A DNA stretch of 64,000 bases, taken from contig JANQJG010000177.1 in NCBI GenBank assembly GCA_028281785.1, forward strand, positions 62,001 to 126,000, in the 5' to 3' direction. This document shows positions 616-41,006 of this stretch, in pieces (position 1 is the stretch's first letter; every line of letters begins with the position of its first letter). Under the pieces are notes generated by a model. It made no database searches, had not been told where the DNA came from, and saw only the letters and a program-made list of their open reading frames with translations. Source of the stretch: Rhodospirillales bacterium (GTDB lineage Bacteria; Pseudomonadota; Alphaproteobacteria; Rhodospirillales; Shumkoniaceae). Both the position numbers and the translations under genes were made by a program.

Positions 616-638
616 CGTTCAGGTTTCCGCTTTGGCAA

Positions 639-906
639 GAGCATGTCTCGTCCATATGGATTCATTCTGACAGAACGGTTTCGGGCCTTGGCCAGGAGGA
701 CGCCGCCGAGCGTATCGGGGACTACGGTCAAGGCGTCCGACGCCGTCCACGGCCCGAAACCGCCTGCCCCGAAGGGGTGGGCCGCGGCGGCCATCCGCGG
801 CGTTGTCCGGCTCGCCCGATGGGGTCGCATCGCGCTTCGCCGGACGCCTGACGGGCTGAGCCGCCGCGACGCCATCAGAATGGGTCTATATGGACGAGAC
901 ATGCTC
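639..906. repeat. 268-bp MITE-like element with 32-bp terminal inverted repeats
   Basis: Bases 639-670 and the reverse complement of 875-906 match at 29 of 32 positions, beginning GAGCATGTCTCGTCCATAT. The interior is GC-rich and encodes nothing I recognise. The right end is followed by TA (907-908, in the context CTAG); the left end is preceded by AA, a possible decayed TA. This fits a small non-autonomous transposable element with a TA target duplication. The right inverted repeat supplies the last six codons and the stop of argD. A related single end lies at 38848. The mobility of the element is inferred. Confidence 0.8.
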
Positions 907-2070
907 TAGCTCGGCAGAGACCCGGTCGATCACGCTCACGGCCTCGTCGATATGTTGCTCCTCAATGATCAATGGCGGCACCAGCCGCACCACGTTGTCG
1001 CCGGCAGCGACGGCCAGCAGGCCGCTTTCCTCCAAGCGATCGATGATACGGGTATTCTCGACCTCGCATTCCAAGGCGAGAAGCATCCCGGCTCCGCGCA
1101 GGCCCTTGAAGATTCGGGGATGCGACACCACCACCTTCTCCAGTCGGCGCCAGAGGATACGCGCCTTGGCGTCGACCGCATCCAGAAAACCGTCGGCCAG
1201 CAGAACATCCAGGACGGCGTTTCCCACCGCCATCGCCAGCGGATTGCCGCCGAAGGTCGATCCGTGGCTGCCCGGCGTCAGCGAGGCCGCCACATGCTCC
1301 TTGGCCAGGCAGGCGCCGACCGGGAAACCGCCGCCCAACCCCTTGGCGACCGACAACAGGTCGGGCTCGATCCCCGCCCATTCATAGGCGAAGAGTTTGC
1401 CGGTCCGCCCAACGCCCGTCTGCACCTCGTCGAAGTACAGCAGCACGCCGAACTCGTCGGCGATCCGCCGAAGCTCGCGCAGATAGTCCAGGGTCGCGGG
1501 TCGGACACCTCCCTCACCTTGCACGGGCTCGACCAGGATCGCCGCGGTTTCCGGCGTGATCGCCGCCCTCAGCTCATTAAGATTGCCGAACGCGACTTGG
1601 TCGAAGCCCTCGGGCAGGGGCGTGAAACCGGCCGTATGCTTGGCCTGGGCGCCGGCGGCGATGGTCGCCAGCGTGCGGCCGTGGAAGCCGCCGGCACAGG
1701 TGACGATGCGGTAGCGCTCGGGCGCGCCGTGATCATCCTGGTATTTGCGGACGAGCTTGAGGCCGCATTCGACCGCCTCCGCGCCCGAATTGCAGAAAAA
1801 GACCGAGTCGGCGAAGGTCGCATCAACCAGGCGTTCGGCCAGCCGGTCCTGTTCCGGAATCTGGTAGAGGTTGGAGCAGTGCCACAGCTTGCCGGCCTGG
1901 GCCTGCAGCGTCTCCACCAGATGGGGATGGCAATGCCCCAGCGCCGTCACCGCAATCCCGGCGCAGAAGTCCAGATATCGTCGGCCCTGCCCGTCCACAA
2001 GATAGACGCCTTCGCCCCGGACGAAGGCCAGATCCTTGCGGGCGTAGTTGGGCATGACCGCGGAAATCAT
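886..2070 (-). CDS. argD: Acetylornithine aminotransferase (class III PLP transaminase)
   Basis: Converts N-acetylglutamate semialdehyde to N2-acetylornithine, and may also serve as succinyldiaminopimelate aminotransferase, using pyridoxal phosphate. The protein has 394 residues. The PLP lysine is K243 in SVAKGLGGGFPVGA, and GSHGSTFGGNPLA and FDEVQTGVGRTG are family motifs. The start at 2070 has a GAGGAG ribosome site about five bases upstream; an internal methionine at residue 6 (MPNYARK) is an alternative. The last six residues, EHVSSI, and the TAG stop lie inside the 639-906 repeat, so the C-terminus has been rewritten by that element. argF follows on the same strand. Confidence 0.95.
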   Translation of the reverse strand: MISAVMPNYARKDLAFVRGEGVYLVDGQGRRYLDFCAGIAVTALGHCHPHLVETLQAQAGKLWHCSNLYQIPEQDRLAERLVDATFADSVFFCNSGAEAVECGLKLVRKYQDDHGAPERYRIVTCAGGFHGRTLATIAAGAQAKHTAGFTPLPEGFDQVAFGNLNELRAAITPETAAILVEPVQGEGGVRPATLDYLRELRRIADEFGVLLYFDEVQTGVGRTGKLFAYEWAGIEPDLLSVAKGLGGGFPVGACLAKEHVAASLTPGSHGSTFGGNPLAMAVGNAVLDVLLADGFLDAVDAKARILWRRLEKVVVSHPRIFKGLRGAGMLLALECEVENTRIIDRLEESGLLAVAAGDNVVRLVPPLIIEEQHIDEAVSVIDRVSAELEHVSSI

Positions 2071-35888: not shown

Positions 35889-36704
35889 TCATTCGGCGGC
35901 GTTGAGGGTCCAATCAAAGCCGTAGCCGTCGATCTCGACCACGTCATCCAGCCGTTTCTTGAGTGTCCCGTCCGCATAACGTCTGAGGTGGGCCAGGACG
36001 TTCTTGTCGCTGCCCCCGAAATCGGCCTTGAACCAGCTGTAGAGGCTGGACACGATCAGCCTTTCCCCGACGAACTGGACCCCGCGCGGGTGATTGACGA
36101 ATTCACGCGCCGAGTTGGTCAGCAACTTATCGGCGGTCTCCGCGGTCGCGGCGACGACCGGCAGGTTCGGTCCACCGACGGCGGCCCGGTTGAGCCCATA
36201 GTGGATGCGCGGGTCGCGCCAGATCGGCCGCAGGATCCGATGCTCGATGTCGTCGAGGCTCAGCACCTCCCCTTCCACCATCAGATCGGTCTGGCTGCGC
36301 GGCAGATCGCTGGCCGGGATCAGATCGATCCCGCCGCCGTCCTCGGCGTCATAGCGCTGCAGCACGGCGCGCACCGTCTGCGCGTTGTAAAGATTGATCC
36401 AGTAGGCAAGCTGTTCGGGACGGTTGAGCGTGCCGACCCGCAAGCCCTCCAGCCGGGCCACGTAATGATCCAGCAGGCTGCGGTCCGACTCGCTGACCTC
36501 GCCATAGGCGATGCGGCGGACGCCATCCTCGTCGACGACCGAGTAGGTCTCGATGAAGCTCGTCCAGAAGGAGTGATCGACGCTCTCCCGCGAGTCCGGG
36601 TCGAAGGCGGTCCATTTCGCCCAAAGGTCGGGTTCGGGGGCGGCCTGGGCGGCGGTCGCCCAGACGAACAGCAGCGCCGCAATTGCGCGAACTCCGAGTG
36701 TCAT
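35889..36704 (-). CDS. DUF547-domain exported protein
   Basis: A 271-residue protein with a signal peptide (about residues 1-22, ending AQAA) and the DUF547 core: LEGLRVGTLNRPEQLAYWIN, LYNAQTVRAVLQRY, IEHRILRPIWRDPRIHYGLN and ERLIVSSLYSWFKADF. The function of DUF547 is unknown, though the fold recalls peptidase-like scaffolds. AGGAA seven bases upstream fixes the start. It is convergent with the methyltransferase gene. Confidence 0.85.
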   Translation of the reverse strand: MTLGVRAIAALLFVWATAAQAAPEPDLWAKWTAFDPDSRESVDHSFWTSFIETYSVVDEDGVRRIAYGEVSESDRSLLDHYVARLEGLRVGTLNRPEQLAYWINLYNAQTVRAVLQRYDAEDGGGIDLIPASDLPRSQTDLMVEGEVLSLDDIEHRILRPIWRDPRIHYGLNRAAVGGPNLPVVAATAETADKLLTNSAREFVNHPRGVQFVGERLIVSSLYSWFKADFGGSDKNVLAHLRRYADGTLKKRLDDVVEIDGYGFDWTLNAAE

Positions 36705-37198
36705 GCCGTGATTCCTGGCCGGCCGCCAACCCTCTTCCAAGATAGCGACTGGCTCCTGAACCCGCCAGACATCAATAAAGGGGATTACCCTTAGGACCTT
36801 TCGGGGGATTACGCAGGGGCTGCGGTTTGGAAAGGGGACCTTTTCGGCTGGGCCTTGTCAGCGGCGCCGGGCTCTCTTTCCAAGGCTGGTGCGCACAAGA
36901 ACTTGGCGTAAGGAAATCCATGCGGCCTCATGATGGAGGAGGTGAGTTCGGTTTTTGGCGATACCAAGGTGTCTGTGGCTTTTTCTGTGGATAGGCTCGT
37001 AACGGATCGAAACAGGTCGGCCTTAGATGGGGCAGTGAATCTAAAGTTGTATTAATAGTTAAATTTTGCGACTATTAGATATACTAATACCAAATTTATA
37101 ATCTTATACGATTATTCTAATATAGAATAAATCTGAAAAATTGGTATAGCGTTCACCTTCCATGTCGTTAGGTGGCAGCTTACAGGGGGAATTGGATC
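36705..37198. other. AT-rich intergenic region upstream of the acquired cassette
   Basis: No gene is supported. Bases 37030-37145 are far richer in A+T than the rest of the window, with TATTAATAGTTAAATTT-type stretches, and could hold promoters or mark foreign DNA. The shift begins near 36770, just past the DUF547 gene. Confidence 0.55.
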
Positions 37199-38848
37199 AT
37201 GGCGGAGCAAGCCCAATTCGAATTCGGCGGCAGCGATGGCGAAAACCCGGGCGCGAGCCAATCGCTGGATGAAATCTCTGTTGAGGAGTTGATGGCCTAT
37301 CCGGAGCGGCCTCAACGGGTCGACTGGGCGAAGACTTGGTACCCGGTGGAGATGGACGCGTTCCAAGAACTCAATCAGGCGGCGACGCAGCCCGACGCGG
37401 AAACCGCGCCCGAGCAAGCCAGGGTTGACGAAAGCGCCGACGCCGATCTCGATATCGAGCGGGAGTCCGACACGCGGGAAGACGATATCGGCGAGGACGA
37501 GCTCGATCCCGAGTTCGCAGCTATGTCGCCAGAAACGCTCGCGCCGGCACTCCGCACATCCTTCGAGGGGATCCCTGCGACCGGCTGGCAGCCGCCGGAT
37601 AACACAATCGCGGTTGGCAACAGCGACGTGCTCGTCGCGGTCAACACCGATCTCGCCGGCTACAGAAAGTCAGGGCAGTTGCGTTTCCGGTGGAACAATA
37701 TGACGACCCTTTTCAGGCGGGTACTGCCGCAGGGGGCTGGCCTGTTCGACCCGCGCGTTTACTTCGATCACTACGCGCGTCGCTGGATCGTCATTGTCGA
37801 TGCGCGCCGCAACAATCCGGTGGGATCATGGATCATGCTCGCCGTATCGCGCACGACCGATCCGCGCGGATCCTATTGGGTCTGGGCACTGGATGCACGA
37901 CTCGACGGTTCGACGACAACAAACAACTGGGCGGACTACACGACCGTTGGGTTCGATACTCAGGGGCTTTATCTCTCAAACAACATGTTCGCGTTCAATG
38001 GAGGGTTCCAATACTCGAAGCTTCGAATTTTGAACAAGAGCGAACTATACGCCGGTGGCAATGGACCCAATCACACGGTCAAATGGTTCGATTTCTGGAA
38101 TATACGCAATCCAGACGGGAGTCTGGCTTTCACTATACAGCCATGCGTTCACTATAGGGGCCGCGGCGCAAACTCACCAGCATACCTCGTCAACGCGCTT
38201 TGGCCAAAGGGTACCACGCTCACCTTGTGGACCTTGCAGAATCCACTGGCTCATTGGTCCGGCGGACGGCCGTCGCTCGGGAACAGCAGCGTCGCCTGCC
38301 GCTACTATGACCTTCCACCGGATGCCGAACAGAAAGGAACGGCGGCGCCGATCGAAACGAACGATACGCGCCTTCTCAACGCGATCTACCAGCATGTGCG
38401 CGGTGTAAGGCGGATTTGGACTGCGCATACCACGAAGATCTCGTGGCGTGGCGACAACGCGGCGCGCTCGGCCCTGCAGTGGTACGAAATCGACGTACCC
38501 TCGGGACGAGTCGAACAGCAGAACGCTTATGGCGCCAAGGGCAAGTACTACTATTTTCCCGCCATTCAAACGGATATCCGGCGCAACACCTATCTCGTAT
38601 TCGGCAGATCGAGCGCCACGGAGTATGCCTCTCTGCGCGAGACGGGTCGGCGGCAAAACGCAACGCCCAACGACCTTGAGAACAGCCGCCTCGTCAAATC
38701 GGGCGAAAGCGCCTATAGCGGCAACCGCTGGGGCGACTATTTCGGAATCTGTCGCGATGGCGACGATCCGCGTCAAGTCTGGTGTTATGGCGAGTTCGCT
38801 GACGCTCGCGGCAGATGGGGAACCTGGGTGGGAGAGATCGGGTACTAG
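37199..38848 (+). CDS. Beta-propeller-like hypothetical protein, 549 aa, no signal peptide
   Basis: Residues 1-100 are acidic and low-complexity (EDDIGEDELDPEFAAMSPET). The rest is rich in Trp/Tyr/Gly with repeats like GWQPPDNTIAVGNSDVLVAVN, ILNKSELYAGG and CRDGDDPRQVWCYGEF, reminiscent of secreted beta-propeller proteins, and the end GNRWGDYFGICRD...WGTWVGEIGY fits that type. No signal peptide is visible, odd for this class. Base composition differs from the neighbours and the TAG stop abuts a repeat end. Function unknown. Confidence 0.7.
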   Translation: MAEQAQFEFGGSDGENPGASQSLDEISVEELMAYPERPQRVDWAKTWYPVEMDAFQELNQAATQPDAETAPEQARVDESADADLDIERESDTREDDIGEDELDPEFAAMSPETLAPALRTSFEGIPATGWQPPDNTIAVGNSDVLVAVNTDLAGYRKSGQLRFRWNNMTTLFRRVLPQGAGLFDPRVYFDHYARRWIVIVDARRNNPVGSWIMLAVSRTTDPRGSYWVWALDARLDGSTTTNNWADYTTVGFDTQGLYLSNNMFAFNGGFQYSKLRILNKSELYAGGNGPNHTVKWFDFWNIRNPDGSLAFTIQPCVHYRGRGANSPAYLVNALWPKGTTLTLWTLQNPLAHWSGGRPSLGNSSVACRYYDLPPDAEQKGTAAPIETNDTRLLNAIYQHVRGVRRIWTAHTTKISWRGDNAARSALQWYEIDVPSGRVEQQNAYGAKGKYYYFPAIQTDIRRNTYLVFGRSSATEYASLRETGRRQNATPNDLENSRLVKSGESAYSGNRWGDYFGICRDGDDPRQVWCYGEFADARGRWGTWVGEIGY

Positions 38849-38873
38849 AGCATGTCTCGTCTATATGGATTCA
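38848..38873. repeat. Isolated end of the 268-bp repeat family
   Basis: Twenty-five of 26 bases match the left end of the element at 639 (GAGCATGTCTCGTC, then T for C, then ATATGGATTCA). It follows CTAG, whose TAG is the stop of the preceding gene. No partner end was found downstream, so it is a truncated copy or a single relic. Confidence 0.7.
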
Positions 38874-38908
38874 CACTTTCGGACATCTCACAGATTGGAA
38901 ACTATGAA

Positions 38909-39133
38909 ATGTTCAGCTTGATAAAGGCGTATTCACTCAAAAACGTCCTAAGCGTGCAGGCTCCGTCACTAGTCACGGCGCTCGCGATCGCGGAGTTGTT
39001 CTACAAATTCGGTAGTTTTTTGCTTGAAGCGATCGCATTCCTTGCGACTTGGTTTATCATGGACGCAATCCTGTCCTTTGTTCTAAAATCTACTCCGAAA
39101 ACAGTCGAGTCGAAGCCAACGGTGGTCGATTGA
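38909..39133 (+). CDS. Small membrane protein, 74 aa
   Basis: Unrecognised. It starts MFSLIKAYSLKNVLSVQAPS and is largely hydrophobic between residues 17 and 54 (ALAIAELFYKFGSFLLEAIA, FLATWFIMDAILSFVLK), with a charged tail, suggesting one or two membrane helices. A start at 38852, inside the repeat end, would extend it by 19 residues. It belongs to the cassette with the genes at 37199 and 39187. Confidence 0.55.
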   Translation: MFSLIKAYSLKNVLSVQAPSLVTALAIAELFYKFGSFLLEAIAFLATWFIMDAILSFVLKSTPKTVESKPTVVD

Positions 39134-39186
39134 GGTCCGGATGTGCGACTACAGGTCACCGGGGCTAGGAATGAAGGTTGGGATCC

Positions 39187-39414
39187 ATGAGTGGCCCAAA
39201 GAGTAGCAATCGGGCAAACAAAGGGGCTGGCGGCTGTGCGGGCCGCACCGGCGGCGATCCGAATGGTGAAACGCCGGTCAAGCCGGCGGTGCGGGATGGG
39301 GGCGGAATTCCGATTGGAATGCCCGTCGATCGCGAGACATTCGAGAACATGAAGCGGAACTCTCGGATCACGGATTCGATTACCGATGTGAACGGTGAGA
39401 AGGATCCAGACTAA
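39187..39414 (+). CDS. Small hydrophilic hypothetical protein, 75 aa
   Basis: Unrecognised. The N-terminal half is Gly/Asn/Lys-rich (MSGPKSSNRANKGAGGCAG), the C-terminal half charged (PVDRETFENMKRNSRITDS). It has no signal or membrane segment and could be disordered. Last gene of the cassette; the next gene is convergent and starts a GC-rich block. Confidence 0.5.
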   Translation: MSGPKSSNRANKGAGGCAGRTGGDPNGETPVKPAVRDGGGIPIGMPVDRETFENMKRNSRITDSITDVNGEKDPD

Positions 39415-39418
39415 GGTC

Positions 39419-40189
39419 TCACCGCGTCGCGACAATGAAAAGCCGGCGGAAGGGAAATAGGGTCCGCCCATCCCGTTCCGGCGGGTAGGCGTCCCGAATG
39501 CGCCGCCCGTAATCCGCGAGAAAGGCGGTTGCCTGGGTCTCGTCGAGGGCGGCGAGGATCGGCCTCAGGATCGATCCCTTGGTAAACTCCGTCACGGGAT
39601 TCTCTCCCTCGAGAACCTGCTGGTAGACGGTCTCCCAGATATCGAGCCGTCTCGCATGCGGCGCGAGCCACCGGTAATACATCTCGGGCGCGGCCACCGG
39701 CCGAAGCCTTAGCTTCGGCAACAACGCCTCCCTCCATGGGCCGGCCTCGACCGTGTCGCGGATGCAGGTATGGGACGGTTCGTCGAAGTTACGCGGCATT
39801 TGAACCGCCAGAACCCCGTCCTCCGCCAAGACACCCACCAGCCGCGGGAACAGCTCGTCATGGCCGTCGAGCCAGTGCAAGGCGGCATTGGAATACATGA
39901 GATCGGGCGGCGTGGGCGGCGACCAGCCGCCGAGATCGGCTTCCACCCACTCGATCCCCTTGCCTGGCCCCGCCTTGCCGGCCTTGGCCAGCATCTCGGG
40001 CGAGGAGTCGACACCCAAGATCCTTGCGTTGGGCCATCTTTCCGCGAGCAACCGCGTCACGTTGCCGGCCCCGCAGCCCAGGTCATGGACGAGGCGCGGC
40101 GCCGCCAGATCCACGCGCCCGAGCAGCTCGATGGCCGGCCTCTGGCGCTCGGCCGCGAATTTCAGGTATTGCGAGACGTCCCAGGCCAC
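39419..40189 (-). CDS. tam: Trans-aconitate 2-methyltransferase-like SAM methyltransferase
   Basis: Methylates trans-aconitate, a TCA-cycle by-product, in E. coli. The 256-residue protein has HDLGCGAGNVTRLLAERWP (SAM motif), DLMYSNAALHWLDGHD, and the C-terminal GSILRPILAALDE and FPFRRLFIVATR. The GTG at 40189 is chosen because the family starts with the WDVSQYLKFA-like segment there and GGAGGG lies nine bases upstream. It starts 17 bases after the DUF4405 gene stops. Confidence 0.82.
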   Translation of the reverse strand: MAWDVSQYLKFAAERQRPAIELLGRVDLAAPRLVHDLGCGAGNVTRLLAERWPNARILGVDSSPEMLAKAGKAGPGKGIEWVEADLGGWSPPTPPDLMYSNAALHWLDGHDELFPRLVGVLAEDGVLAVQMPRNFDEPSHTCIRDTVEAGPWREALLPKLRLRPVAAPEMYYRWLAPHARRLDIWETVYQQVLEGENPVTEFTKGSILRPILAALDETQATAFLADYGRRIRDAYPPERDGRTLFPFRRLFIVATR

Positions 40190-40205
40190 GGGCGCGGCCC
40201 TCCGG

Positions 40206-41006
40206 TTATTGTCCGCTGGCCAGCCGTCCCAGCTCTCCCGGCGTGACCCCATGCCGATTGGCGATGTCGCGCAGGGCCTCCTGCTCCTCGAAGTCGATGT
40301 TCTGAGCCGCCAGCCGGCTCCGTACCTCTTCATAGTCGAGGCCATGGCGGGCGGCAACATCCCGAATCGTCGTGCGGCCGAAGCCGCCTCCGCCGCCATA
40401 GCCGCTTCCCTCTATGTGCTCCTCGGCCGCGTCCGAAGGCATCGCCCGTGCCTTGCCGGTTTCCCCGGCCGCCGTCTGCCCCTCGGCCTCATCGAGGATC
40501 GCGTCGATACCCGCGCCCACTTGGCGCAGGGCGTCCTCGTGCTCGGTCGACCGCGCCGGCGAGCGGACGGCGGTTCCGGCGACCGCGTTGTCGAGCCACA
40601 TCTCGTCCTTGGCCCATTCCCTCACCTCGAGGATCAGGTCGAGCGGCGGCACCCAATTCACCGAACCGACGACGATGAAGGCCGTGAGCGCCAGAGCCGT
40701 CATCATCTCCCACTTGCGGTTCAGGCTGCCCCGTGCCCGCGAGTAGAGATAGGCCTTGAGCGGCTTCCAGTTGAAATAGAGATGGATAAGCCCGGCGACG
40801 ATGAACATCGTGCAGGTGACGATGTGGATGTTGGTCCAGTCGTCCTTGCTCAGGCCAAGGATCTGCCATGCCGACCAGTTGGCGATGCGGCCCGCCGGCG
40901 CGAAGAACATCACTACGCCGGTGACCGTCGCCACGACAAATCCGGTGACCATCAGGAAAGTGACCAGCCCGCGGGTATAAAAGGGTCTCCTTCGCGTTGC
41001 GCTCAT
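40206..41006 (-). CDS. DUF4405 membrane protein with two C-terminal helical repeats
   Basis: A 266-residue protein. Residues 10-115 contain about four membrane segments with the DUF4405 pattern (VTGVVMFFAPAGRIANWSAW, IHIVTCTMFIVAGLIHLYFN); conserved His residues there may bind heme as in cytochrome b-like proteins. After a Gly-rich linker the tail has two repeats, RDVAARHGLDYEEVRSRL and RDIANRHGVTPGELGRLAS. No partner oxidoreductase is adjacent; the histidine kinase is upstream on the same strand (113 bases). Confidence 0.78.
   Translation of the reverse strand: MSATRRRPFYTRGLVTFLMVTGFVVATVTGVVMFFAPAGRIANWSAWQILGLSKDDWTNIHIVTCTMFIVAGLIHLYFNWKPLKAYLYSRARGSLNRKWEMMTALALTAFIVVGSVNWVPPLDLILEVREWAKDEMWLDNAVAGTAVRSPARSTEHEDALRQVGAGIDAILDEAEGQTAAGETGKARAMPSDAAEEHIEGSGYGGGGGFGRTTIRDVAARHGLDYEEVRSRLAAQNIDFEEQEALRDIANRHGVTPGELGRLASGQ

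Follow-up and report, generated by a model that had tools for sequence, protein, structure and literature searches.

What is a propeller-like protein without a signal peptide doing beside two very small proteins in an alphaproteobacterial genome, and do the three genes belong together? They lie in a stretch of 64,000 nucleotides from a Rhodospirillales bacterium, referred to below as the window. The first-pass annotation had read them as a possible acquired cassette, in which the missing signal peptide pointed to an unusual secretion route or to an intracellular role with the small membrane protein as partner. The analysis finds that the cassette is real, acquired, recurrent and unnamed. A description of such a cassette was not found in the literature searched; one paper on the fibres of injection systems, which mentions propellers (PMC12923769), was set aside as unrelated to the cassette. 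The features on which the argument depends are as follows, in window coordinates.

35889 to 36740, reverse strand: left flank, DUF547 protein (PF04784), outside the cassette and marking the insertion site.
37040 to 37198, forward strand: AT-rich leader and ribosome-binding region of gene 1, with 23% GC at 37040-37160 and AGGGGG about 10 bases 5' of the ATG at 37199.
37199 to 38848, forward strand: gene 1, from its ATG at 37199 to its stop codon at 38848, coding for a leaderless, probable beta-propeller protein of 549 aa with an acidic leader (residues 1-115), a docking-like motif at about 47-66 and a core at about 115-549.
38847 to 38873, forward strand: solo terminal inverted repeat of a MITE-like element; it runs over the stop codon of gene 1 and matches 638-664 at 96% and 909-888 at 95%.
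38909 to 39133, forward strand: gene 2, encoding a membrane protein of 74 aa, predicted to be a two-helix hairpin, in a reading frame that is already open at 38852.
39187 to 39414, forward strand: gene 3, encoding a Gly-rich hydrophilic protein of 75 aa with the motif IPIGMPVDRETFENMKR; in every actinobacterial locus a homologue of it stands 5' of gene 1.
39419 to 40399, reverse strand: right flank, methyltransferase resembling trans-aconitate methyltransferase (PF13649), outside the cassette.

The gene content that had been described at this site was recovered throughout. The AT-rich leader is present, and the gene 1 protein has neither a signal peptide nor another N-terminal hydrophobic segment, since the maximum Kyte-Doolittle mean over 15 residues is 0.13 in its first 70 residues. 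Its leading region is acidic, with 33 D+E against 6 K+R in the first 115 residues. The hydrophobic stretch of gene 2 spans approximately residues 17-59. Models built independently of the window recover both of the small open reading frames. With a gene-3 model made from actinobacterial sequences only, the window gene 3 ranks first of 636 ORFs at E 5.5e-6, the next one having 0.26. A model for gene 2, made from Ruegeria and Microvirga only, finds the window gene 2 (E 8.8e-22; next 5.9). Judged by these sequence models, genes 2 and 3 are not chance reading frames. In searches of Pfam, NCBIfam, PHROG and PADLOC, no family covers any of the three proteins, and no toxin or defence family was matched. 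A weak match to DUF2380 in some homologues falls below its cut-off and was taken as chance. The cassette is thus a small gene system outside all the family databases searched.

That the cassette had been acquired was part of the earlier proposal, and it is borne out by its site, its composition and its distribution. The third-position GC content (GC3) of genes 1, 2 and 3 is 0.71, 0.60 and 0.64, compared with 0.82-0.85 in the genes on both sides. In three related genomes, one of the same family (G001) and two of the same order (G005 and G023), the DUF547 and methyltransferase genes are adjacent and the cassette is absent (loci L105, L111 and L112). The gaps at this empty site are about 130, 110 and 17 bases in G001, G005 and G023, respectively, with no gene between. 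In all three, colinearity continues into the histidine kinase beyond; in G023 it also takes in the rRNA-methyltransferase-like and gamma-glutamyltranspeptidase genes. No gene 1 homologue was found among 59 relatives. Among 385 genomes of the same class, a close homologue occurs only in the window's own genome, and distant relatives occur in two others; the identity to actinobacterial proteins is 52-54%. Because the site is empty in three relatives, the 59 relatives lack gene 1 and the other genomes of the class that were compared hold at most distant homologues, comparison of these genomes makes horizontal acquisition the most likely origin of the three-gene cassette at this site. Scans for Rfam families, tRNAs and terminators revealed no site-specific integration target, and no relatives of the cassette were found in phages or viral contigs. 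A repeat end had also been noted between genes 1 and 2, and it is real. At window positions 635-910 there is a MITE-like element of 276 bp, with arms at 635-670 and 875-910 that form 36-bp terminal inverted repeats (89% complementary), and with internal inverted repeats. One end of this element recurs alone at 38847-38873 (96% over 27 bp).

The fold of gene 1 was approached by modelling. The model of the full-length protein is poor (pLDDT 36.9), and that of the core only is moderate (pLDDT 49.6), with core residues of about 27-250 mostly at about 65-88 and forming repeated strands. When this partial core model was used in Foldseek, almost all matches were beta-propellers, including GH43, sialidase, arylsulfate sulfotransferase and WD40 proteins; the best E-value was 2.9e-4, at TM-scores of only about 0.2-0.3 and identities of 7-12%. 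The core is therefore likely, as far as a partial model can tell, to belong to the beta-propeller fold class. The resemblance to the GH43, sialidase and arylsulfate sulfotransferase propellers in the PDB is one of fold, with a low TM-score, and no catalytic site was identified in gene 1. The earlier assignment as a propeller is supported at the level of fold, by the partial model and its structural matches together with homology to an exported propeller-like family.

The gene 1 family falls into a close clade and a set of distant homologues, and these differ in whether they carry an export signal. Full-length homologues with 51-54% identity (57-59% in the core) are present in six Amycolatopsis genomes and one Modestobacter genome; G914, an Amycolatopsis-like genome, has a further one, and so does G943, a Pseudonocardiaceae genome of a different kind, in which the core is 63% identical to that of the window. 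Members of the close clade are rare. In a scan of genome contigs with exact short peptides of the window protein, by which diverged copies will be missed, they turned up in 3 of the 297 Pseudonocardiaceae sampled and, for the Modestobacter family, in 1 genome of 115, with the starting genome counted in each. No member of the close clade has a signal peptide, and the maximum 15-residue hydropathy stays below 0.9, whereas it is mostly above 1.7 in the distant homologues. The latter, at a core identity of about 21-31%, are found in actinobacteria, haloarchaea and alphaproteobacteria, and most have Sec or Tat-like N-termini, with a few (e.g., L022 and L013) having no obvious signal. They form an unnamed family of mostly exported, propeller-like proteins, annotated as hypothetical, IPT/TIG or PEP-CTERM proteins, and their core is homologous to that of gene 1: the PPD, DP, Q, R and RWGDY motifs are invariant or nearly so in both. 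Across 25 aligned sequences, core positions P24, D26, D76, Q270 and R402-Y406 are invariant, and the PPD, DP, RWGDY and W.T-like end motifs are present. Conservation of gene 1 extends over its length, unlike in polymorphic toxins. The cysteines differ, however: one is invariant in the leaderless clade, as opposed to six in each of two groups of exported homologues. The single invariant cysteine fits a reducing compartment. In contrast to the cassette, the exported family lacks gene 3 and a linked gene 2, and neither of these genes nor the leader is detectable near the distant homologues within the stretches read. Thus, the statement that propellers of this type are usually exported applies to the distant homologues and fails for the close clade, which is consistently leaderless. 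Homologues standing alone with ordinary signal peptides, which had been named as evidence against the cassette, are likewise confined to the distant set.

The trio was to be sought in other genomes, and its slots were indeed found in nine actinobacterial loci (L003-L009, L065 and L066), namely one of Modestobacter, seven of Amycolatopsis type and that of G943. In all nine, a gene-3 homologue is directly 5' of gene 1 and a membrane protein is directly 3' of it, so that the actinobacterial order g3-g1-g2 is a rotation of the order g1-g2-g3 in the window. Between the Amycolatopsis jejuensis locus (L008) and L007, conservation is concentrated mainly in the trio, at 82% over 2.1 kb, and the near flanks differ. 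The membrane slot is filled by a small two-helix TM protein in eight of the nine loci and, in G943, by TauE/SafE (PF01925), a full permease unrelated to gene 2. Between the gene 2 family of the window and the small TM protein of actinobacteria, profile comparison detected no homology (score 11.2, inside the shuffle range); thus what is conserved there is the gene slot.

Homologues of gene 2 itself are known from plasmids, where they accompany other leaderless propellers. One on a Microvirga plasmid (52%, E 3e-10) precedes a leaderless Sortilin/BNR-type propeller of 1028 aa. On two Ruegeria plasmids (40-45%, E 4e-8 to 7e-8), the homologue follows a leaderless propeller of 425 aa (WP_170543932.1), itself preceded by a hydrophilic protein of 80 aa. 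A plasmid of Streptomyces europaeiscabiei encodes a leaderless propeller (WP_327349089.1) 43% identical to that of Ruegeria. Before it stand a hydrophilic protein of 80 aa and a TauE permease that shares 69% identity with the one in G943; no other TauE match at E <1e-40 was found among 72,556 plasmids. Profile comparison relates the Ruegeria-type propeller to the gene-1 superfamily (97.95% probability, E 3e-13), and no significant pairwise match exists between the Ruegeria or Streptomyces propellers and gene 1. Both proteins resemble gene 1 in belonging to this superfamily and having no signal peptide, and their loci resemble the cassette in having an 80-aa small protein before the propeller and an adjacent membrane protein, either a gene 2 homologue or TauE. 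They differ from gene 1 in lacking the acidic leader, and their 80-aa proteins have no match to gene 3. All three slots (propeller, small hydrophilic protein and membrane protein) are adjacent in the window and in loci L003-L009, L065, L066, L114, L115 and L117. These recurrent gene neighbourhoods speak for the small membrane protein as a putative partner, as first suggested.

A further tie between the genes is a motif common to the leader of gene 1 and to gene 3. The leader segment reads WYPVEMDAFQELNQAA in the window, FPVPVEEYDQLKTGA in Amycolatopsis and FPVSMEEYRELVTAAEQPDP in G943, and the conserved segment of gene 3 reads IPIGMPVDRETFENMKR in the window, with IPIGMPVSPEEMDRLKKAA and VPIGSPVGPDEWRELKRRAEQPDP as its counterparts. 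When the leader and gene 3 profiles were aligned with hhalign, the score was 29.0, and 31.7 with actinobacterial sequences only; none of 150 column shuffles came near these values, the maxima being 19.3 and 17.8. A search of the window's own genome gave no second occurrence of the gene-3 motif, no convincing further copy of the leader turned up in ten cassette-carrying genomes, and nothing convincing emerged when additional copies of either were sought in this genome and its relatives.

We favour a reading, with a probability of about 0.5, in which the acquired, mobile cassette encodes a leaderless propeller that stays in the cytoplasm and is docked to the membrane. The propeller would have lost, or never possessed, an export signal, and its acidic leader is probably flexible and bears the short docking-like motif. 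The gene 2 product would be a small hairpin protein of the inner membrane, and this membrane partner would hold the propeller, via the leader, at the inner face of the membrane. The gene-3 protein may compete for or share this binding site, or may bind directly to the leader, and could act as an adaptor or competitor that sets the amount of docked propeller. The cassette propellers are of a usually exported kind, here signal-less and tied to membrane partners that vary by lineage. Should the motif of the leader and gene 3 serve for docking, it would represent a compact and novel means of positioning a protein at the bacterial membrane. A more general and rather doubtful extension is that the cassettes form a modular system, in which different leaderless propellers are addressed to interchangeable membrane partners (small hairpins or TauE-like permeases) by a leader motif also carried on a separate small protein, as a new principle of targeting or export across phyla.

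The same motif could instead be expected of two substrates of one machine, as in an unlikely alternative to cytoplasmic docking, non-classical export. The acidic leader would act as a signal for secretion or sorting, the membrane protein would be, or would recruit, the translocation route, and gene 3 would encode either a chaperone or another small cargo that bears this signal. The Sec or Tat-like N-termini of most distant homologues and the membrane protein that always adjoins agree with export. However, the cassette has no known secretion machinery, neither TauE nor a 74-aa hairpin is a likely protein channel, and the leaderless clade is missing the conserved cysteines of its exported relatives.

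It is quite unlikely that the cassette is an effector or toxin unit, with gene 1 as a putative toxic or contact-delivered protein, gene 2 as its membrane immunity protein and gene 3 as a chaperone or adaptor. Compactness, mobility and patchy distribution would suit such a unit, leaderless effectors are commonly encoded beside small membrane proteins, and gene 3 of Modestobacter has a leaderless lipase overlapping or abutting it; yet no toxin or defence family was matched, and the conservation of gene 1 along its whole length is not that of polymorphic toxins. Contractile-injection genes (DUF4157 and tail sheath) are also found about 2 kb away from the Streptomyces version. As the sheath family PF04984 is absent from the window genome (G000) and from six of seven other trio genomes, this proximity does not generalise, and a role as contractile injection cargo was rejected.

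Still less probable is passive co-inheritance, by which an unremarkable propeller gene would carry small neighbours as passengers, and their co-occurrence would reflect the shared descent of one transferred fragment. Most actinobacterial copies do come from one genus and hence are not independent, and few genomes in the sample have the close clade. However, gene order differs between the window and actinobacteria and yet all slots are filled, Modestobacter and G943 fall outside Amycolatopsis, and both gene 2 and TauE also occur beside further leaderless propellers. Finally, a propeller that binds or senses a sulfonate beside a TauE/SafE exporter of sulfite or a related anion would suit the pairing of TauE/SafE with leaderless propellers in G943 and Streptomyces and the taurine-like cluster (TPP enzyme, pta, sulfate exporter and TRAP permeases) around the Ruegeria locus, but it is very improbable: PF01925 is broad, neither the window nor Amycolatopsis or Modestobacter was seen to have a sulfur gene beside the cassette, and the Ruegeria setting may be coincidence.

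The surroundings of several of these loci were noted as well. On the Ruegeria plasmids (L114:1-13883 and L115:5040-13896), gene 2 and the propeller lie beside genes resembling those for taurine/sulfonate catabolism and uptake, and the neighbourhood holds a TPP enzyme, pta, a sulfate exporter, an aminotransferase-type regulator, TRAP permeases and an AGE-family epimerase. On the S. europaeiscabiei plasmid (L117:4764-11546), TauE, the small protein and the leaderless propeller are about 2 kb from the DUF4157 and tail-sheath genes. In Modestobacter, the hydrolase at L003:1155-2771, a leaderless alpha/beta-hydrolase (Lipase_2/DUF676) that overlaps or abuts the start of the gene-3 homologue, may be an extra member of the cassette. 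Near the same trio, on the opposite strand (L003:5691-7127, reverse), is a BNR-type propeller that has no obvious signal peptide and ends with a long Asp run. Its neighbour (L003:7164-8060, reverse) resembles, by eye, the neighbour of a matrixin-propeller protein in Microvirga (L116:6392-7516).
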